From: Clostridium ljungdahlii
Lineage (GTDB): Bacteria > Bacillota > Clostridia > Clostridiales > Clostridiaceae
Length of the DNA: 64,000 bases
Assembly: GCF_001636845.1 (NCBI RefSeq)
Contig: NZ_LITT01000058.1
Span: 186,001-250,000, forward strand
Reading direction: 5' to 3'
The position numbers and the translations under genes are program-made. The notes beneath the pieces are model-generated. The model did no database searches. It was given only the letters and a program-made list of their open reading frames with translations, and was not told the origin of the DNA. Within the stretch, counting starts at the first letter, position 1, and each line of letters starts with the position of its first letter. Shown piece after piece: positions 2,091-30,644 of the stretch.

Positions 2091-3023
2091 ATGAAGATTG
2101 TAGTGATAGGTGCAGGTGCTATGGGGAGTTTATTTGGAGGATTGCTTAGCGAAAGTGGAAACGATGTCACATTCGTTGATGTTTCTAAAGCCCATATTGA
2201 TGCTATTAATAGAGATGGACTTCTTCTTACAACAACATCTGGTGCTAGATACATAAAAGTTGCAGCAAAATATGCACAAGATGTAAATGAAACTCCAGAT
2301 CTTGCAATTATATTTACAAAAACTGTTTATTCAGCAGATGCTATGGAGTCTGCTAAACCTTTCATAGGAGATAATACCTATGTAATGACATTGCAGAATG
2401 GACTTGGAAATGTAGAGTTAATTGAAAAATACGTTCCAAAAGAACGAATTATTGTAGGTATGACTAATTTCCCAAGTGATCTTGTAGGACCAGGAAAAGT
2501 AAGCTCTATGGGAAGCGGAATAGTAGTAGCTATGAGTGCAAATGGGCAAGATCATCCATTATTAAGAACCGTTGAAAAAGAATTCAACAAGGCTGGTCTT
2601 AATTGTGAAATTTCCAAAGATGTGTTTGTTCATATTTGGGAGAAGGTGGCTTTTAATGCTGCGATGAATACACTAACAGCAGTTACAAGGCTGCGCATAG
2701 GAGATATGTCTTCAACTGAGGAGGGACGCTCTCTTGCGTTTGAAATTGCTGCAGAAGTTATTTCAGTGGCTAATAAATGTGGAGTTGATGCCAAATTGCA
2801 AACTGTAATTAAAAATCTTGAAATGGCTTTTTCAGAACATGGAAGTCATATGCCTTCAATGATGCAGGACATGCTTGCCAAAAGACAAACAGAGGTGGAT
2901 TTTATAAATGGTGCTGTAGTTAAACAAGCAGAGTCAGTGGGAATTGATGTACCAGTAACACGAGTTATGTATTCTTTGATCAAAATTATTCAACAAAGGT
3001 ACATTAATCAAGTATTAGAATAG
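2091..3023 (+). CDS. Ketopantoate reductase (ApbA/PanE) family dehydrogenase
   Basis: NAD(P)-dependent reductase, 310 residues from the ATG at 2091. That start is chosen because AGAAGGAGGA sits 4-10 bases upstream; the longer frame from 2046 would run through this ribosome site. The Rossmann motif GAGAMG is at residues 7-12. The catalytic lysine of the family is K185 in EKVAFNAAMNTLTAV, and the conserved glutamate is E268 in KRQTEVDFINGA. Classical PanE makes pantoate, but family members also reduce other branched 2-oxoacids to D-2-hydroxyacids. Here it stands in a catabolic island and shares its operator with transporters and a 2-oxoacid oxidoreductase, which favours a 2-hydroxyacid dehydrogenase role. 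That role is inference. Confidence 0.85.
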   Translation: MKIVVIGAGAMGSLFGGLLSESGNDVTFVDVSKAHIDAINRDGLLLTTTSGARYIKVAAKYAQDVNETPDLAIIFTKTVYSADAMESAKPFIGDNTYVMTLQNGLGNVELIEKYVPKERIIVGMTNFPSDLVGPGKVSSMGSGIVVAMSANGQDHPLLRTVEKEFNKAGLNCEISKDVFVHIWEKVAFNAAMNTLTAVTRLRIGDMSSTEEGRSLAFEIAAEVISVANKCGVDAKLQTVIKNLEMAFSEHGSHMPSMMQDMLAKRQTEVDFINGAVVKQAESVGIDVPVTRVMYSLIKIIQQRYINQVLE

Positions 3024-3162
3024 TTTTCTGTTTTATTATGATTTAAAAAGTTTTGTGATGCATATCTCTTAAACTTATAGAAGTTTAGTTTTTTATGGAT
3101 TCCAGTAAAATTTTTTGTTTTACTGGAATTTGTTGTATTTAATATAGAGTAATATAGAAAGT

Positions 3163-13394: not shown

Positions 13395-14605
13395 TGTCTT
13401 ATAAAATGCTAGATGGAAATGGAGCAGCAGTTGAAGCTATAAAAATGGCAAAAGTGAAAGTAGTATCAGCATATCCAATAACCCCTCAAAGTACAATAGC
13501 AGAAAAGCTATCAGAATTAGTAGCATCAGGAGAATTGAAAGCAGAATATGTTCGTGTTGAATCAGAGCATACAGCTTTATCAGTGGCGACAACAGCTCAG
13601 TTAACAGGAGTGAGAACAGCAACTGCTACAGCATCACAAGGATTAGCTTTAATGCATGAAGTATTAGGAATGACATCAGGAGTAAGAGTTCCAATCGTAA
13701 TGCCAGTTGTAAATAGAGGACTTGCAGCACCATGGACATTATGGTGTGAACATGGAGATGCAATGGCAGAAAGAGACTCGGGATGGCTGCAATTCTATTG
13801 TCAAAATGTACAAGAAGTATTTGACATGACGATTATGGCATATAAGGTTGCGGAGGATGAAAAGGTATTGACACCAGCAATGGTATGTTTAGATGGTTTC
13901 TTTCTTTCTCACTCAATGCAAAAAATAGATGTACCAAGTCAAGAATTAGTAGATGAATTTTTAGGACCATATGTTCCTAAAAATACATATTTAGATACAT
14001 CAGATCCTATGTTTGTATGCAACTTAACAGGGTCTGATGATTATACAGAAATGAGATATCAACAAAAGGTAGGGATGGATAACTCATTTGAGGTTATAGA
14101 AAAGGCACAAAAAGAATTTGAAGAAAAGTTTGGAAGAAAGCTAAGTATTGTAGAGGGATATAGAACAGAAGATGCAGATGTAGTATTAGTAGCATTAGGT
14201 TCAATGTGTGGTACTGCAAAATATGTAGTTAACAAATTAAGAGAACAAGGTAAAAAAGTAGGATTAGTAAAGATTGTAGTATTTAGACCATTCCCAGTAA
14301 ATTATCTAAAAGAAGTTTTAAAAGGAAAAGAAGTAATTGGAGTATTTGATAGAAGTGCTGGATTAGGTGGTCAAGGTGGTCCAGTTTGGAGTGAAACTTG
14401 TGCAGCTATGAAAGCAGCAGATTGTGATATAAGACACTATGTAGGCGGACTTGGAGGAAGAGACGTTACAGTAGATACTATAGAAAAGATATTTAATGAA
14501 CTTTTAGAAATAAAAGAAGGAAAAAGAAAAGATCATACAGAGTGGATAGATGTAAAAGAAAATGCTATGGATATAAGGCAGGTGGAAAAAAATGCACGAG
14601 ATTAA
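13394..14605 (+). CDS. 2-oxoacid:ferredoxin oxidoreductase, alpha subunit
   Basis: 403 residues. Starts MSYKMLDGNGAAVEAIKMAK, then AYPITPQSTIAEKL, the PYR-domain block of PorA-type chains. YVRVESEHTALSVATTAQLTGVRTATATASQGL holds the conserved glutamate that activates TPP. The C-terminal half has VFDRSAGLGGQGGPV, also typical. The length and full four-subunit set match pyruvate- and phenylglyoxylate-type enzymes better than the short 2-oxoglutarate types. A decayed second copy of its start lies at 10827. It overlaps beta by 14 bases. Confidence 0.9.
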   Translation: MSYKMLDGNGAAVEAIKMAKVKVVSAYPITPQSTIAEKLSELVASGELKAEYVRVESEHTALSVATTAQLTGVRTATATASQGLALMHEVLGMTSGVRVPIVMPVVNRGLAAPWTLWCEHGDAMAERDSGWLQFYCQNVQEVFDMTIMAYKVAEDEKVLTPAMVCLDGFFLSHSMQKIDVPSQELVDEFLGPYVPKNTYLDTSDPMFVCNLTGSDDYTEMRYQQKVGMDNSFEVIEKAQKEFEEKFGRKLSIVEGYRTEDADVVLVALGSMCGTAKYVVNKLREQGKKVGLVKIVVFRPFPVNYLKEVLKGKEVIGVFDRSAGLGGQGGPVWSETCAAMKAADCDIRHYVGGLGGRDVTVDTIEKIFNELLEIKEGKRKDHTEWIDVKENAMDIRQVEKNARD

Positions 14606-15470
14606 ACATAATTCAAAGGGATTAATACCACATGGAGTAAGTGCATGTGCGGGTTGTGGAATGGAATTAGTTATAAGAAATGTTTTGGATGTATTAGGTG
14701 AAGATACAATAATTATTATACCACCAGGATGCTCAGCATTATTTTCAGGTTACGGAAATGAAACAGCAATAAAAATTCCAGGATATCAAGGAAACTTAGA
14801 AAATACTGCAGCAGGTGCAGCAGGAGTAAGAGCAGCATTAAATGCAATGGGAAATACTCATACAACAGTTGTTGGTTTTGCTGGTGATGGAGGAACTGTT
14901 GATATAGGACTTCAATCATTATCTGGCGTACTAGAAAGAAGAGATAAAGTGCTTTATATATGCTATGATAATGAAGCTTACATGAATACAGGAATACAGG
15001 GTAGCAGCTCAACACCATTCCTAGCAAGTACAACAACTACACCAGCAGGAAAACCAACTGGAAGAAAAGATTTAATGCAAATAGCAATTGCGCATGATAT
15101 ACCTTATGCAGCAACAGCTTCAATTTGCAATTTAACAGATTTAAAGAAAAAAGTGCAGAAAGCAAAGGATACAGATGGACCATCTCTATTGCATATAAAC
15201 ACACCATGTCCTACAGGATGGAGATATAATCCTGCTAAGACAATAGAAGTAGCGAGAGCAGCTGTACAAACAGGATGCTGGGTTCTATTTGAATATGAAG
15301 ATGGAAAAATCACAATAAATAGTAAGCCAAAGGAATTAAAGCCTGTGGAAGAGTATATTAAACTTCAAGGAAGATTTAAAGGTTTAAGTTCAGAGCAAAG
15401 AGAAGAATTACAAAAATATACTACAGAACATTATGAAAAATACATTAAGAGATTAGAGAGTATGGTTTAA
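14592..15470 (+). CDS. 2-oxoacid:ferredoxin oxidoreductase, beta (TPP-binding) subunit
   Basis: 292 residues. SACAGCGMELVIRNV gives the first cluster-ligand cysteines of PorB-type beta chains. GFAGDGGTVDIGLQSLSGVLERRDKVLYICYDNEAYMNTG is the thiamine diphosphate fold with the GDG...N motif that binds Mg and TPP. HINTPCPTGWRY carries a further conserved cysteine. It completes the complex and is followed 85 bases later by the phosphotransbutyrylase relative, with a hairpin between, so acyl-CoA made here can be passed straight to acyl phosphate. Confidence 0.92.
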   Translation: MHEIKHNSKGLIPHGVSACAGCGMELVIRNVLDVLGEDTIIIIPPGCSALFSGYGNETAIKIPGYQGNLENTAAGAAGVRAALNAMGNTHTTVVGFAGDGGTVDIGLQSLSGVLERRDKVLYICYDNEAYMNTGIQGSSSTPFLASTTTTPAGKPTGRKDLMQIAIAHDIPYAATASICNLTDLKKKVQKAKDTDGPSLLHINTPCPTGWRYNPAKTIEVARAAVQTGCWVLFEYEDGKITINSKPKELKPVEEYIKLQGRFKGLSSEQREELQKYTTEHYEKYIKRLESMV

Positions 15471-27967: not shown

Positions 27968-28058
27968 ATGAGTAAATTGTATTTAATTAAAAACATTGGT
28001 ACAATTGGATATAAGCTTATAATAACAAAATTATATTTTAGAAAGGTCGTAATGTTTT

Positions 28059-28829
28059 ATGAATCCAGTAGCATTTTCTATTAATGGCTTTCAAATAAGA
28101 TGGTATGGTATAATGATAGCTTTAGGAGTTATGGCAGCACTTTTTTTAGCTAAATTCAACTGTAAAAACAAAAACTACAATTTTGATAATATAGTAGATA
28201 CTTTTTTAATATCTTTTCCCTTTGCTATAATAGGAGCTAGAGCCTACTATGTTATTTTTCAATTTCAGGATTATAAAGATAATATTATAGATGTATTCAA
28301 TATAAGGCAAGGGGGTCTTGCTATTCATGGAGGACTTATATTTGGGCTTACAGCTGCGTATATATACACCAGACATAAGAAAATAGATTTTATAAAATTA
28401 GCTGATTGTGTAGCACCTTCTATAATACTTGCTCAGGCAATAGGAAGGTGGGGGAACTTTTTTAACGGAGAGGCTCATGGTGGACCTGTAAGTTATCAAT
28501 TTATAAGTAAATTTCCATTGTTTATACAAAAGGGAATGTTTATAGATGGAACTTATTATCACCCTACATTTTTGTATGAATCTCTGTGGAATTTAACTGT
28601 GTGTATAATTCTAGTATATATTTTGAGAAGAAGGCATAATAGGGGTTCTGTAATAGCAGCATACATAGGTTTGTACTCACTAGGAAGGTTTTTTATAGAA
28701 GGACTTAGAACTGACAGTTTAATGCTTGGAAGTATAAGAGTAGCACAGTTAGTTAGTCTTACAGGAGTTATATTTAGCATAGGCTTTTTCATATATTTAA
28801 AGCACAAGAAAAGTATAAACTCATTATAG
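28059..28829 (+). CDS. lgt: Prolipoprotein diacylglyceryl transferase
   Basis: Membrane enzyme that attaches diacylglycerol to the lipobox cysteine of prolipoproteins. 256 residues, about seven membrane segments. [12 protein letters not shown] near the N-terminus, [21 protein letters not shown] and the hallmark [18 protein letters not shown] are all present, as is [13 protein letters not shown]. The window contains lipoprotein substrates such as the GerC-like and ThiY-like proteins. It may be led by a terminator-containing leader. Confidence 0.95.
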
Positions 28830-28842
28830 ATATTCTAAACAA

Positions 28843-29070
28843 AAAATAAGATTACACTCCGAATATTTTTTACACCATTCAGCTCGTTAAATATTTTGAT
28901 AAGTCTAAGTGAAAAATTTAAAAAATATAAGAACTTTTGAAAACTCGTACCTCAGACAATTCAAAAGTTCTAATTTTTTATATAAATTTTTCACTAAGAC
29001 TTATGTACAAAATATTTAAATGTGCTTCATTATTGTAAAAAATATATCTGCGTATAATCTTATTTTTAAG
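28843..29070. repeat. Long imperfect inverted repeat, hairpin 1 of a pair
   Basis: About 228 bases fold on themselves. Inner arms: 28899-28938 with 28963-29004, including AAGAACTTTTGAA and its complement. Outer arms: TTAAATATTTTG (28887-28898) with 29008-29019, and AAAAATAAGATTA near 28843 with its complement near 29060. The loop is AACTCGTACCTCAGACA (28942-28958). No protein is encoded. Confidence 0.8.
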
Positions 29071-29111
29071 TTAGAAAGCATTTATAATATAGTTAATAAA
29101 TATTTTAAGTC

Positions 29112-29395
29112 TAAAATATGATTTATATAGAATTTCCAATTGAAATTTAAACTTATACGTAAAATGTAATGACAAAGTTGAAAGCACATTTAAAAACTTT
29201 TCAATAAGTCTTAGCGAGGTATTTTAGAAAATCTTAGGAGCTTAGATATGTCTGAGGTACGAGTTTATCTAAGGTTCTTAGATTTTCAAAATACCGAGCT
29301 TTAGACTTGTCAAAAGTTTTTATGGTGCTGAAATTTGTCATTACATGCTTTGTATAAGGTTACTTTCAAACTGCAAAATCTATATCTGTATTTGA
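29112..29395. repeat. Long imperfect inverted repeat, hairpin 2 of a pair
   Basis: About 284 bases of imperfect arms meet at a loop TGTCTGAGGTACGAGTT (about 29250-29266), the exact reverse complement of the loop at 28942-28958. Matching arm blocks include ATGTAATGACAAA, AAAACTTTT, GGTATTTT, GAAAATCT and CTTAGATA. It shares ATAAGTCT-AG-G near the same arm position with hairpin 1. It ends about 10 bases from the htrA stop. Confidence 0.8.
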
Positions 29396-29405
29396 TTTAA
29401 AGGTT

Positions 29406-30644
29406 TTATTCTGTCAATGTTAGATTCAGTGTTTTGTTACTTCCATTTCTGTTTACGACAATTTCCACTGTATCTCCAGATTTGTGAGTAGCTTTTATAT
29501 CATTTATATCACTTATAGACTTTACAGATTTACCGTCAAATTTTTGAATAACATCTCCAACCTTAAGTCCACATTTTTCTGCGGCACTAAATTCTTGTAC
29601 TTCTGCTACATATACACCTTCAGGTACATTATATGCTTGAGAAAGCTGTGAATTTATATCTCTACCTGCAATACCTAGCTTTAAAATAGGTTTTAAAAGA
29701 CCACTTAATTTAGGTTTTACAGTGTCTATTGGTATTGCAAATCCAATTCCTTCTACTCCACTTCCACCTATTTTAGCAGAATTTATACCTATTACTTGAC
29801 CTGCAGAATTTACGAGTGCACCGCCGCTGTTACCTGGGTTTATGGCAGCATCTGTTTGAAGATAGTCCTGAGTATTATTGCCAACTTTAATATCCCTATT
29901 TGTTGCACTTATAACACCAGTAGTTACAGTACCTAATAATTCTTTACCAAGAGGATTTCCTATAGCTACTACAGAATCACCTACCTGAAGATTCTTTGAA
30001 TCACCTAATTCTGCTACAGCTGGCATTTTTTCATTGGTAGTTACTTTAATTATGGCTAGATCCAGGCCTGCATCATAATTTACTACTTTCGCAGTTGCTT
30101 CTTTTTTATTGTTAAATATTACACTTACTTTTTCAGCAGACTCTATAACATGATAATTTGTAAGTATATATCCATCCTCATTTATTATTATACCTGAGCC
30201 CATGCCGTCATCCTGGCTGTCACTACTGCTGCCGTTTGATTGACTTTCATCAGATTGGCTGTTACCAGAAAATCCAAATATATCGGATGACTGAGAAGCA
30301 GTTTTTATAGATACTCCAACTACAGCAGGACCTACTTTTTTTGCTATTTCAGATACGGTAAGGCCGCCTTTCACAGTTGATACAGGGGAAGCACTTATAG
30401 TAGAAGATTTTTCACTTCCTGTATTTTGGAAAGCTAGATTTTGATATAATGGGGTGCTCTTAAACATACCTAATTTTGGTACAAAATATAAGGCACCTGC
30501 AATTGAAATACTTCCACCTAGTATACTGCATACTAATCCTACAGCTATATAAGACATAAATTTTTTACTTCTTTTAAGTTTGTCTTTGAACTTAGTTTTT
30601 AAACTTATCTCTGAAGTATCATATTTGTTGTTGAAATTGCCCAT
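29406..30644 (-). CDS. HtrA/DegP-type membrane serine protease with PDZ domain
   Basis: 412 residues. A short cytoplasmic basic N-terminus is followed by one membrane segment (about 31-55), so the protease faces the outside. A Ser-rich, glycine-rich linker (about 120-148) precedes the trypsin-like fold. The catalytic triad is visible: His in LTNYHVIESA, Asp in YDAGLDLAII, Ser in NPGNSGGALV. One PDZ domain (about residues 315-410, GVYVAEVQEFSAAEKCGLKVGDVI) closes the protein. It handles misfolded envelope proteins under stress. RBS GGAGGT before ATG 30644. Divergent from the MarR gene. Confidence 0.93.
   Translation of the reverse strand: MGNFNNKYDTSEISLKTKFKDKLKRSKKFMSYIAVGLVCSILGGSISIAGALYFVPKLGMFKSTPLYQNLAFQNTGSEKSSTISASPVSTVKGGLTVSEIAKKVGPAVVGVSIKTASQSSDIFGFSGNSQSDESQSNGSSSDSQDDGMGSGIIINEDGYILTNYHVIESAEKVSVIFNNKKEATAKVVNYDAGLDLAIIKVTTNEKMPAVAELGDSKNLQVGDSVVAIGNPLGKELLGTVTTGVISATNRDIKVGNNTQDYLQTDAAINPGNSGGALVNSAGQVIGINSAKIGGSGVEGIGFAIPIDTVKPKLSGLLKPILKLGIAGRDINSQLSQAYNVPEGVYVAEVQEFSAAEKCGLKVGDVIQKFDGKSVKSISDINDIKATHKSGDTVEIVVNRNGSNKTLNLTLTE

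Follow-up and report, generated by a model that had tools for sequence, protein, structure and literature searches.

A facing pair of long hairpins in Clostridium ljungdahlii, probably one copy of a palindromic mobile unit with IS630-like ends

Two long hairpins stand face to face between convergent genes in a 64,000-nucleotide stretch of the Clostridium ljungdahlii genome (contig NZ_LITT01000058.1, positions 186,001 to 250,000; hereafter the window, in whose numbering positions are given). We consider this pair to be probably one copy of a non-autonomous palindromic unit of the MITE kind that is mobilised by IS630-family elements. From sequence comparison, its identity as a MITE appears well supported, and we infer the mobilisation itself. 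The family of palindromic elements with IS630-like ends to which it belongs is apparently undescribed as far as we searched, and is unusual in that its apex is fixed and structured and its members sit at stop codons.

The hairpin pair in the window

Hairpin A occupies positions 28825–29083 on the plus strand (profile match 28827–29079, 205 bits) and hairpin B positions 29126–29384 on the minus strand (profile match 29129–29383, 238 bits; covariance model, 124.5 bits), with a spacer at 29084–29125. Each is a near-palindrome bounded by the end motif TATAG...CTATA, found in direct reading in A, and B is in sense orientation for the gene on the right. Both fold far beyond shuffled sequence, with an RNA minimum free energy of −77.7 kcal/mol for A (28833–29076, plus strand; z −12.9) and −98.1 kcal/mol for B (29110–29400, plus strand; z −11.4), 0 of 200 shuffles being as good in either case; the minus-strand fold of B has z −10.8. 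The two adjacent long hairpins described in an earlier note, made from the letters of this DNA, are thus real. The repeats are paired as that note said, and their extents, which it gave as about 230 and 280 bases, are corrected by the end motif to ~259 bp each. Together, the two ~259-bp hairpins form a short unit of ~560 bp without a transposase gene, and no ORF of 60 aa lies within A or B.

The apex of A (28942–28958, plus strand) reads AACTC-[G TAC C]-TCAGACA, and that of B (29249–29265) reads AACTCGTACCTCAGACA on the minus strand. The two 17-base loops are exactly complementary, as had been noted, and the 17-mer and its reverse complement mark the only two such sites in the 64-kb window at up to 3 mismatches. 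Described earlier as a simple loop, this sequence is better read as an internal loop, AACTC/TCARACA, under a mini-stem. The conserved motif ATAAGTCTAAG in the left arm of A (28899–28909, plus strand) and CTAAGACTTAT in its right arm (28994–29004, plus strand), both in direct reading, are equally placed in A and B, again in agreement with the earlier observation, and are well conserved among the copies of the genus. The CTAAG of A at 28905–28909 faces a second CTAAG at 28994–28998, which gives an A.A mismatch once folded; CTAAG is present in both arms of many other copies, with the same consequence.

The gene upstream of A (28059–28829, plus strand, 256 aa), which we take to be Lgt, has a stop codon (28827–28829) that overlaps the end of A, its TAG being the TAG within the left end TATAG of the hairpin. 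On the other side, the convergent 412-aa gene (29406–30644, minus strand), presumably of the DegP/HtrA type, ends with a stop codon that is 21 nt away from B.

Distribution, types and position behind genes

The hairpins are members of a dispersed family. In this genome (G000), the 15-mer TGTCTGAGGTACGAG has 77 occurrences at up to 1 mismatch, and the same pattern read backwards has 0. Exact matches to TGTYTGAGGTACGAG were found in 4 of 59 genomes (G000 itself, G003 and G005 of the same genus, and G019 of another genus) and in 9 of 206 genomes of the bacterial family, representing 4 of 46 genera. A search for the loop in this genome and in other clostridia, as proposed in the earlier note, yielded many copies and not only the pair. 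A covariance model built from 27 chosen hairpins of four genera matched 35 of 200 family genomes in 12 of 46 genera (E up to 0.001), with at most 18 candidates scored per genome, so that per-genome counts are lower bounds; it also matches the opposite strand of many hairpins at 38–52 bits, as it must with palindromes. Across a sample of the phylum, the model matched 3 of 398 genomes, this genome included; of the other two matches, L430 looks like an ordinary hairpin and L431 like a true remote member. L431, from another family of the phylum (G275), is one remote hairpin with the apex AACTCGCTTCGCTCAGACA and the arm motif TCTAAGGCTCG.

Carriers of the motif among the matches listed include Clostridium ragsdalei, C. 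thailandense, C. magnum and C. rhizosphaerae, and among the same matches it also occurs once each in many other taxa. Strongly paired arms accompany 43 of the 44 Clostridium occurrences listed, compared with 17 of the 41 listed in other taxa. On viral contigs the 15-mer was present in 23 stretches, 10 of them with an arm duplex below −16 kcal/mol, a threshold that does not discriminate because the 17 paired occurrences in other taxa pass it too.

The fetched loci contained 85 full-length hairpins in G000 (52 of type A and 33 of type B) and 70 in G003 (40 A and 30 B). In this genus, ~35 bp at the outer ends, the loop and the ATAAGTCTAAG motif are common to both types, and the sequence in between differs. 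Facing full pairs less than 300 bp apart combine A with B in 28 of 28 cases (16 in G000 and 12 in G003, some of them orthologous sites), and one further A–B pair is in tandem. The unit is probably A, a spacer and an inverted B; some of the spacers are related to one another. Because A always faces B in these pairs, the complementary loops are the same loop seen from its two strands, as expected if they form an inverted pair of one element, and no kissing is needed to account for their complementarity. Kissing loops had been suggested as the point of the pair, and against this 65 of 145 full hairpins are solo, having no neighbouring hairpin (56 stand in facing pairs and 24 beside a fragment). 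Shortened tips occur, as do mini-elements of 59 and 81 bp (L095 and L088) with little beyond the ends.

A few loci depart from the simple unit. Five tandem family hairpins follow one gene at L225 in G205 (13697–15341), with apex spacings of 469, 299, 470 and 299 nt; an integron-like cassette array was considered for this locus and rejected, there being no ORF of at least 60 aa between the hairpins and one 64-aa ORF that overlaps the last. Inspection of L058, L053 and L077 for cargo or an autonomous element between hairpins did not show the unit to carry a gene. At L053/L105 in G003, A and B are separated by an Amj (PF10997) gene (L053, 1675–2490), and the orthologous gap in G000 (L006) is ~1 kb shorter. 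In the G003 orthologue of the window locus (L116), the segment 1631–2716 stands where this genome has hairpin B; it contains an apparent shortened B, an ORF of 152 aa for which Pfam gave nothing at E 0.01, a further hairpin and an arm resembling that of A. Replication strand as the determinant of type was likewise rejected, as A+B− (478 kb) and B+A− (608 kb) arrangements lie on the same side of G003.

Position relative to genes is strongly patterned. A stop codon in sense orientation lies between −40 and +80 nt from the 5′ edge of 116 of the 145 full hairpins (median 4 nt), and for 112 of the 116 it lies between −17 and +24 nt. The loops mostly read CTCGTACCTCARACA on the strand of the preceding gene. 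With genes called by a simple ORF rule that may miss small ones, 157 full hairpins divided into 67 between convergent genes, 88 between co-directional genes and 2 between divergent genes. Those with co-directional neighbours are sense in 66 cases and antisense in 22 (p 1.4e-6), and of the 65 solo hairpins, 48 are sense only, 4 antisense only, 6 both and 7 neither. Across loci L200–L224, a sense gene ends no more than 200 nt before the apex in 17 of 25. Shortened hairpins, 18 sense and 11 antisense, do not differ significantly from full ones (Fisher p 0.23). We found no T-tract after the hairpins, the frequency of T per position being 0.23–0.56 across 60 nt for 66 solos. The flanks of these 66 solos are more complementary than when reshuffled (−4.55 versus −3.53, sd 0.24; 0 of 200). 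Insertion into a terminator is at most a frequent case, and a general one is not supported because the T-tract is absent.

IS630-like ends and changes between sister genomes

The ends of the unit, ~33 bp long, read TATAG(A/G)GTT...AACTTATAC and resemble those of IS630-family elements, which supports the link to transposition that had been offered as one possibility. In G148, an IS630-type transposase is encoded by two overlapping ORFs (orfA and orfB) with HTH_33 (PF13592) and DDE_3 (PF13358) domains. This element (L185, L284 and L285) has the ends TATAGGGTTCAAGGGTCATAACTTAACTTATAC and its inverted partner and stands directly after a hairpin; it does so in the three fetched copies, the fourth being cut by a contig end. 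Five IS630-type ends (two of G148, one of G005, one of G150 and one of a remnant in G000) were identical to the A and B end consensus at 21–26 of 33 positions, with 0 of 20000 shuffles as good in each of 10 comparisons. A strict end pattern gave 3 matches in L185 versus 0 in 200 shuffles, and fails to match the hairpins of the window, whose ends are degenerate. The G148 copies also have at least ~550 bp in common beyond the insertion sequence, and may be copies of a larger segment.

DDE_3 (PF13358) genes adjoin hairpins in G148, G000 and G005, the adjoining transposase being truncated in G000 (L019) and G005 (L294). G000 holds a DDE_3 remnant only, and relatives of the element are present in G148 and G005. 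There were 0 DDE_3 matches in hairpin-rich G003, G019, G168, G147, G149, G162, G163, G192 and G193, so that the present distribution of the transposase does not follow that of the hairpins. Neither Y1_Tnp nor DDE_3, then, is the enzyme gene following the hairpins across genomes that the earlier note had suggested looking for. Some IS630-type elements, in G152 (L287), G150 (L289/L290) and G191 (L292), have other ends, and for L293, the G005 element, a right end was looked for and not found. In direct reading, the D-type hairpin next to the G148 element ends like the G152 element (TAGATAACCAC...), so IS630 ends of more than one kind may have been joined to the interior hairpin. No similarity was seen between the hairpin interior and the insertion sequences; an IS-derived identity of the family, raised at the outset, thus holds in part, for the ends.

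Comparison of sister genomes revealed several kinds of change. The whole unit with its spacer is inverted at L030/L122 (identity 94.8% inverted versus 71.7% direct) and at L063/L044 (95.1% versus 75.9%), and its orientation is unchanged at L002/L124, L017/L129 and L076/L142. At L014/L140, L064/L051 and L054/L136 the opposite orientation fits better, at only 85–88%, as if these units had been exchanged for another copy. One genome has one hairpin and the other two at L058/L133 and L073/L139. Types A and B are swapped at several sites, with orientation kept in 5 of 6 (the exception being L143/L247).

Clean empty sites were obtained in 2 of 12 comparisons, L026/L163 and L077/L170. Where L026 is filled and L163 empty, the element splits CCTTTAATATTTAAG at its central TA, which fits a TA duplication in the centre of a palindrome; at L077/L170, the insertion splits a terminator-like hairpin in its loop, which fits a TA target. 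For the other 10 of 12 sites, the partner had a shortened copy, another repeat or a canonical terminator, or was not simply readable. One species has a terminator-like hairpin with a T-tract where the other has hairpin A at L120/L244.

In the reading that we prefer, DDE transposases of the IS630/Tc1-mariner type, acting in trans, would recognise the ~33-bp ends and insert the unit at TA. Units would survive by landing in or beside terminator-like palindromes right behind stop codons, presumably because a further palindrome does little harm there, and would later be inverted, replaced by other copies or stripped of one hairpin. The hairpin nearest the gene, with the apex AACTC...TCARACA in the sense of the mRNA, would then be the one usually found. 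This apex may be read by some protein as a folded single strand, either ssDNA during transposition or RNA in the 3′ untranslated region. A plain MITE needs no conserved apex, and this counts against our preferred reading.

The folded apex, competing explanations and known systems

In most of the relatives listed, the apex has AACTC as its 5′ strand and TCARACA as its 3′ strand, joined by a short cap with pairing ends. The cap is G-TAC-C here and GC-TAC-GC, GG-TTC-CC, GCC-TTT-GGC or GT-ATA-AC elsewhere, and the 33 distinct caps offer 56 possible outer pairs, of which 49 form, versus 23.4 in shuffles (maximum 35 in 2000). A loop under constraint, as the earlier note had it, agrees with this common apex and with the many near-exact copies of the 15-mer in the genome. 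Foreign inserts end exactly before CTCGTACC of the apex at L057 and L068 (G000), L111 and L165 (G003) and L191 and L192 (G163). Most of them have small hairpins of their own, they differ between the two genera, and they are perhaps IS200/IS605-type elements that target the apex.

The arms vary greatly. Mean left-arm identity among 41 non-redundant hairpins is 0.50, and the duplex with a hairpin's own other arm averages −28.3 kcal/mol compared with −10.3 kcal/mol for arms of others; hairpins entered this set only if their own-arm duplex reached −16 kcal/mol and their apex fitted CTC...TCARRCA, so both properties are partly a product of the selection, and the set includes L020 minus, a chance match inside the degP gene. 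In alignment A2, of 27 chosen rows, two-sided changes occur in 20 of 24 pairs, across genera, and 88.2% of cells are paired versus 70.4% when shuffled and 33–51% when slid; the number of pair types was reached by 64 of 500 shuffles, and so is not beyond the control. Alignment A1, of 31 rows with degenerate ones kept, gave no consensus structure. Between sister species (8 aligned sites), 48 of 79 single changes at paired sites break the pair, and 2 of 3 two-sided changes keep it. The drift of the arms by paired changes, as originally proposed, is thus borne out between genera and not between sister species.

Rates of change between sister genomes (28 pairs) are 3.1% at paired, 8.9% at unpaired and 0.6% at loop positions. 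These rates suggest constraint, with the loop figure (3 of 476 positions changed, and 0 of 119 in 7 pairs found by flank) biased by the use of the loop itself to retrieve the copies. Flank searches recovered 20 full hairpins, mostly from sites picked because no exact-loop partner was there; the loop is intact in 9 of them, has one mismatch in 8, two in 2 and six in 1. We read the covarying arms, the paired caps and the shared CTAAG mismatches as long-term selection on a folded single strand, which seems to be recognised; covariation across relatives does not tell RNA from ssDNA. A bolder version of this reading, which we think less likely than not, is that of a transposable hairpin. Selection would act on the nucleic acid in its folded form, as a rod of ~125 bp whose sequence is free and which bears a fixed apex (AACUC/UCARACA around a variable mini-stem) and CTAAG/CTAAG A.A mismatches, to be bound by a clostridial protein; the hairpin would serve as a portable 3′-end module behind dozens of genes and be moved by any IS630-type element with matching ends.

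The hairpins could conceivably be a structured RNA, in which the mRNA 3′ end keeps the hairpin, a protein bound to the apex sets 3′-end processing or stability, and mobility is mere spread. This possibility, which we regard as doubtful, is favoured by the excess of sense over antisense among solos and beside co-directional genes, the near-absence of hairpins between divergent genes, the sense gene that precedes most apices at L200–L224, the orientation kept at all swapped sites except one, and the covariation and shared mismatches. However, folding in the sense strand predicts more G–T than A–C among the non-Watson–Crick cells, and the arms of 85 A and 70 B copies contain 467 and 550, respectively. 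Moreover, in a symmetric facing unit the hairpin closer to the gene is necessarily in sense orientation, and solos may be units whose far hairpin was lost; the orientation of shortened hairpins does not differ significantly from that of full ones, the low rates of loop change carry the bias of loop-based fetching, and changes between sister genomes are uncompensated. The last point, together with the near-equality of G–T and A–C cells, would fit copying from arm to arm (by template switching or hairpin correction) that keeps pairing without selection on folding. We think such copying unlikely to be the explanation, since it would erase AACTC/TCARACA and the CTAAG A.A mismatches, both of which persist in many copies and several genera, and the cap varies in length and sequence yet mostly stays paired.

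Host terminators or 3′-end protectors that do not move would explain the site right behind stop codons and between convergent genes, and the terminator-like hairpin with its T-tract in place of hairpin A at L120/L244. The absence of a T-tract after the solos and the patchy distribution, inversions, swaps and empty sites make this explanation quite improbable. Very improbable, in our view, is an origin like that of REP/BIME sequences, in which the hairpins are ssDNA substrates of a Y1 transposase (RAYT or IS200-type) and A and B are the inverted repeats of a BIME. In its favour are facing pairs of two types where genes end, frequently adjoining the stop codon or overlapping it, and the apparent recognition of a folded strand, but Y1_Tnp (PF01797) had 0 matches in hairpin-rich G003 and G019, and 15 and 18 in G009 and G010, where the covariance model found no hairpin. 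The size, ~259 bp rather than 20–40, and the ends, which are IS630-like inverted repeats, also speak against it.

Searches for a described family were negative within their scope. In Rfam, nothing in 28000–30000 scored above its gathering score, three miRNA matches falling far below theirs. The loop and its variants, searched as printed words in the literature, gave matches unrelated by title, and among the matches listed by topic no title or abstract opening describes such hairpins, in accord with the earlier statement that no described family with this loop was known. In the passages of the sources cited here, the nearest in kind are RUP and IS1272. RUP of Streptococcus pneumoniae is described there as a 107-bp repeat with ends like those of IS630-Spn1, a reported target duplication, 110 copies in one genome and a tight fold with paired ends (PMC3049150). 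To judge from that account, it is likewise a short repeat without genes whose ends are like those of an IS630-family element; it differs from the present family, which has two ~259-bp hairpin types in facing units tied to stop codons, covarying arms, an apex common to several genera and another host group. IS1272 of Staphylococcus aureus, in the part of the report used, targets inverted repeats (potential stem-loops), with two of three new insertions downstream of genes, encodes a transposase of its own and takes the place of the target repeat, leaving no target-site duplication (PMC5678879). L120/L244 resembles such a terminator replaced by an element, whereas our two clean sites keep both palindrome halves and fit TA duplication, and the ends here are IS630-like.

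Other comparisons, equally limited to the passages cited, are more distant. REP/BIME sequences are extragenic palindromes at gene ends in paired units, and REP ends can supply TAG stops (PMC3733652). The present hairpins are alike in all three respects, and unlike in having ~259 bp and TATAG...CTATA ends with no tracking Y1 gene, compared with 20–40 bp, a GTAG or CGTC foot and a Y1 partner for REP. The BOX and SPRITE repeats of S. pneumoniae are folded when transcribed, SPRITE being enriched at the 3′ ends of convergent genes (PMC3049150); the predicted folding and the site are similar here, and ends and architecture are different. A clustering of stem-loop families from C. perfringens and C. 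tetani, among others, has also been published (PMC2267715).

On our preferred reading, that of an IS630-mobilised unit, some clostridia, including gas-fermenting acetogens, would carry the same kind of unannotated ~259-base hairpin at the ends of dozens of genes in each genome, and insertion inside terminator palindromes would be a safe-harbour strategy. If the apex is bound as RNA, the hairpins would form a genome-wide 3′-UTR system; if ssDNA is the bound form, they would be transposition substrates that depart from what is usual for IS630. In both cases, the family would be a natural collection of hairpins in which the arms vary freely and the tip stays constant.

Other scattered repeats were encountered along the way. 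A different one in G003 (GTTAATGTGGATTTTTTTCCGTTACACTAC...) accounts for 16 of the 46 matches of one query (2930–3085). Another, in G000 and G005 (GATAAGCACTGCTACGCACCTGGATAAG...), adjoins a hairpin and recurs many times elsewhere, and makes up most of the 80 matches to the flank of L132 (query 991–1100).
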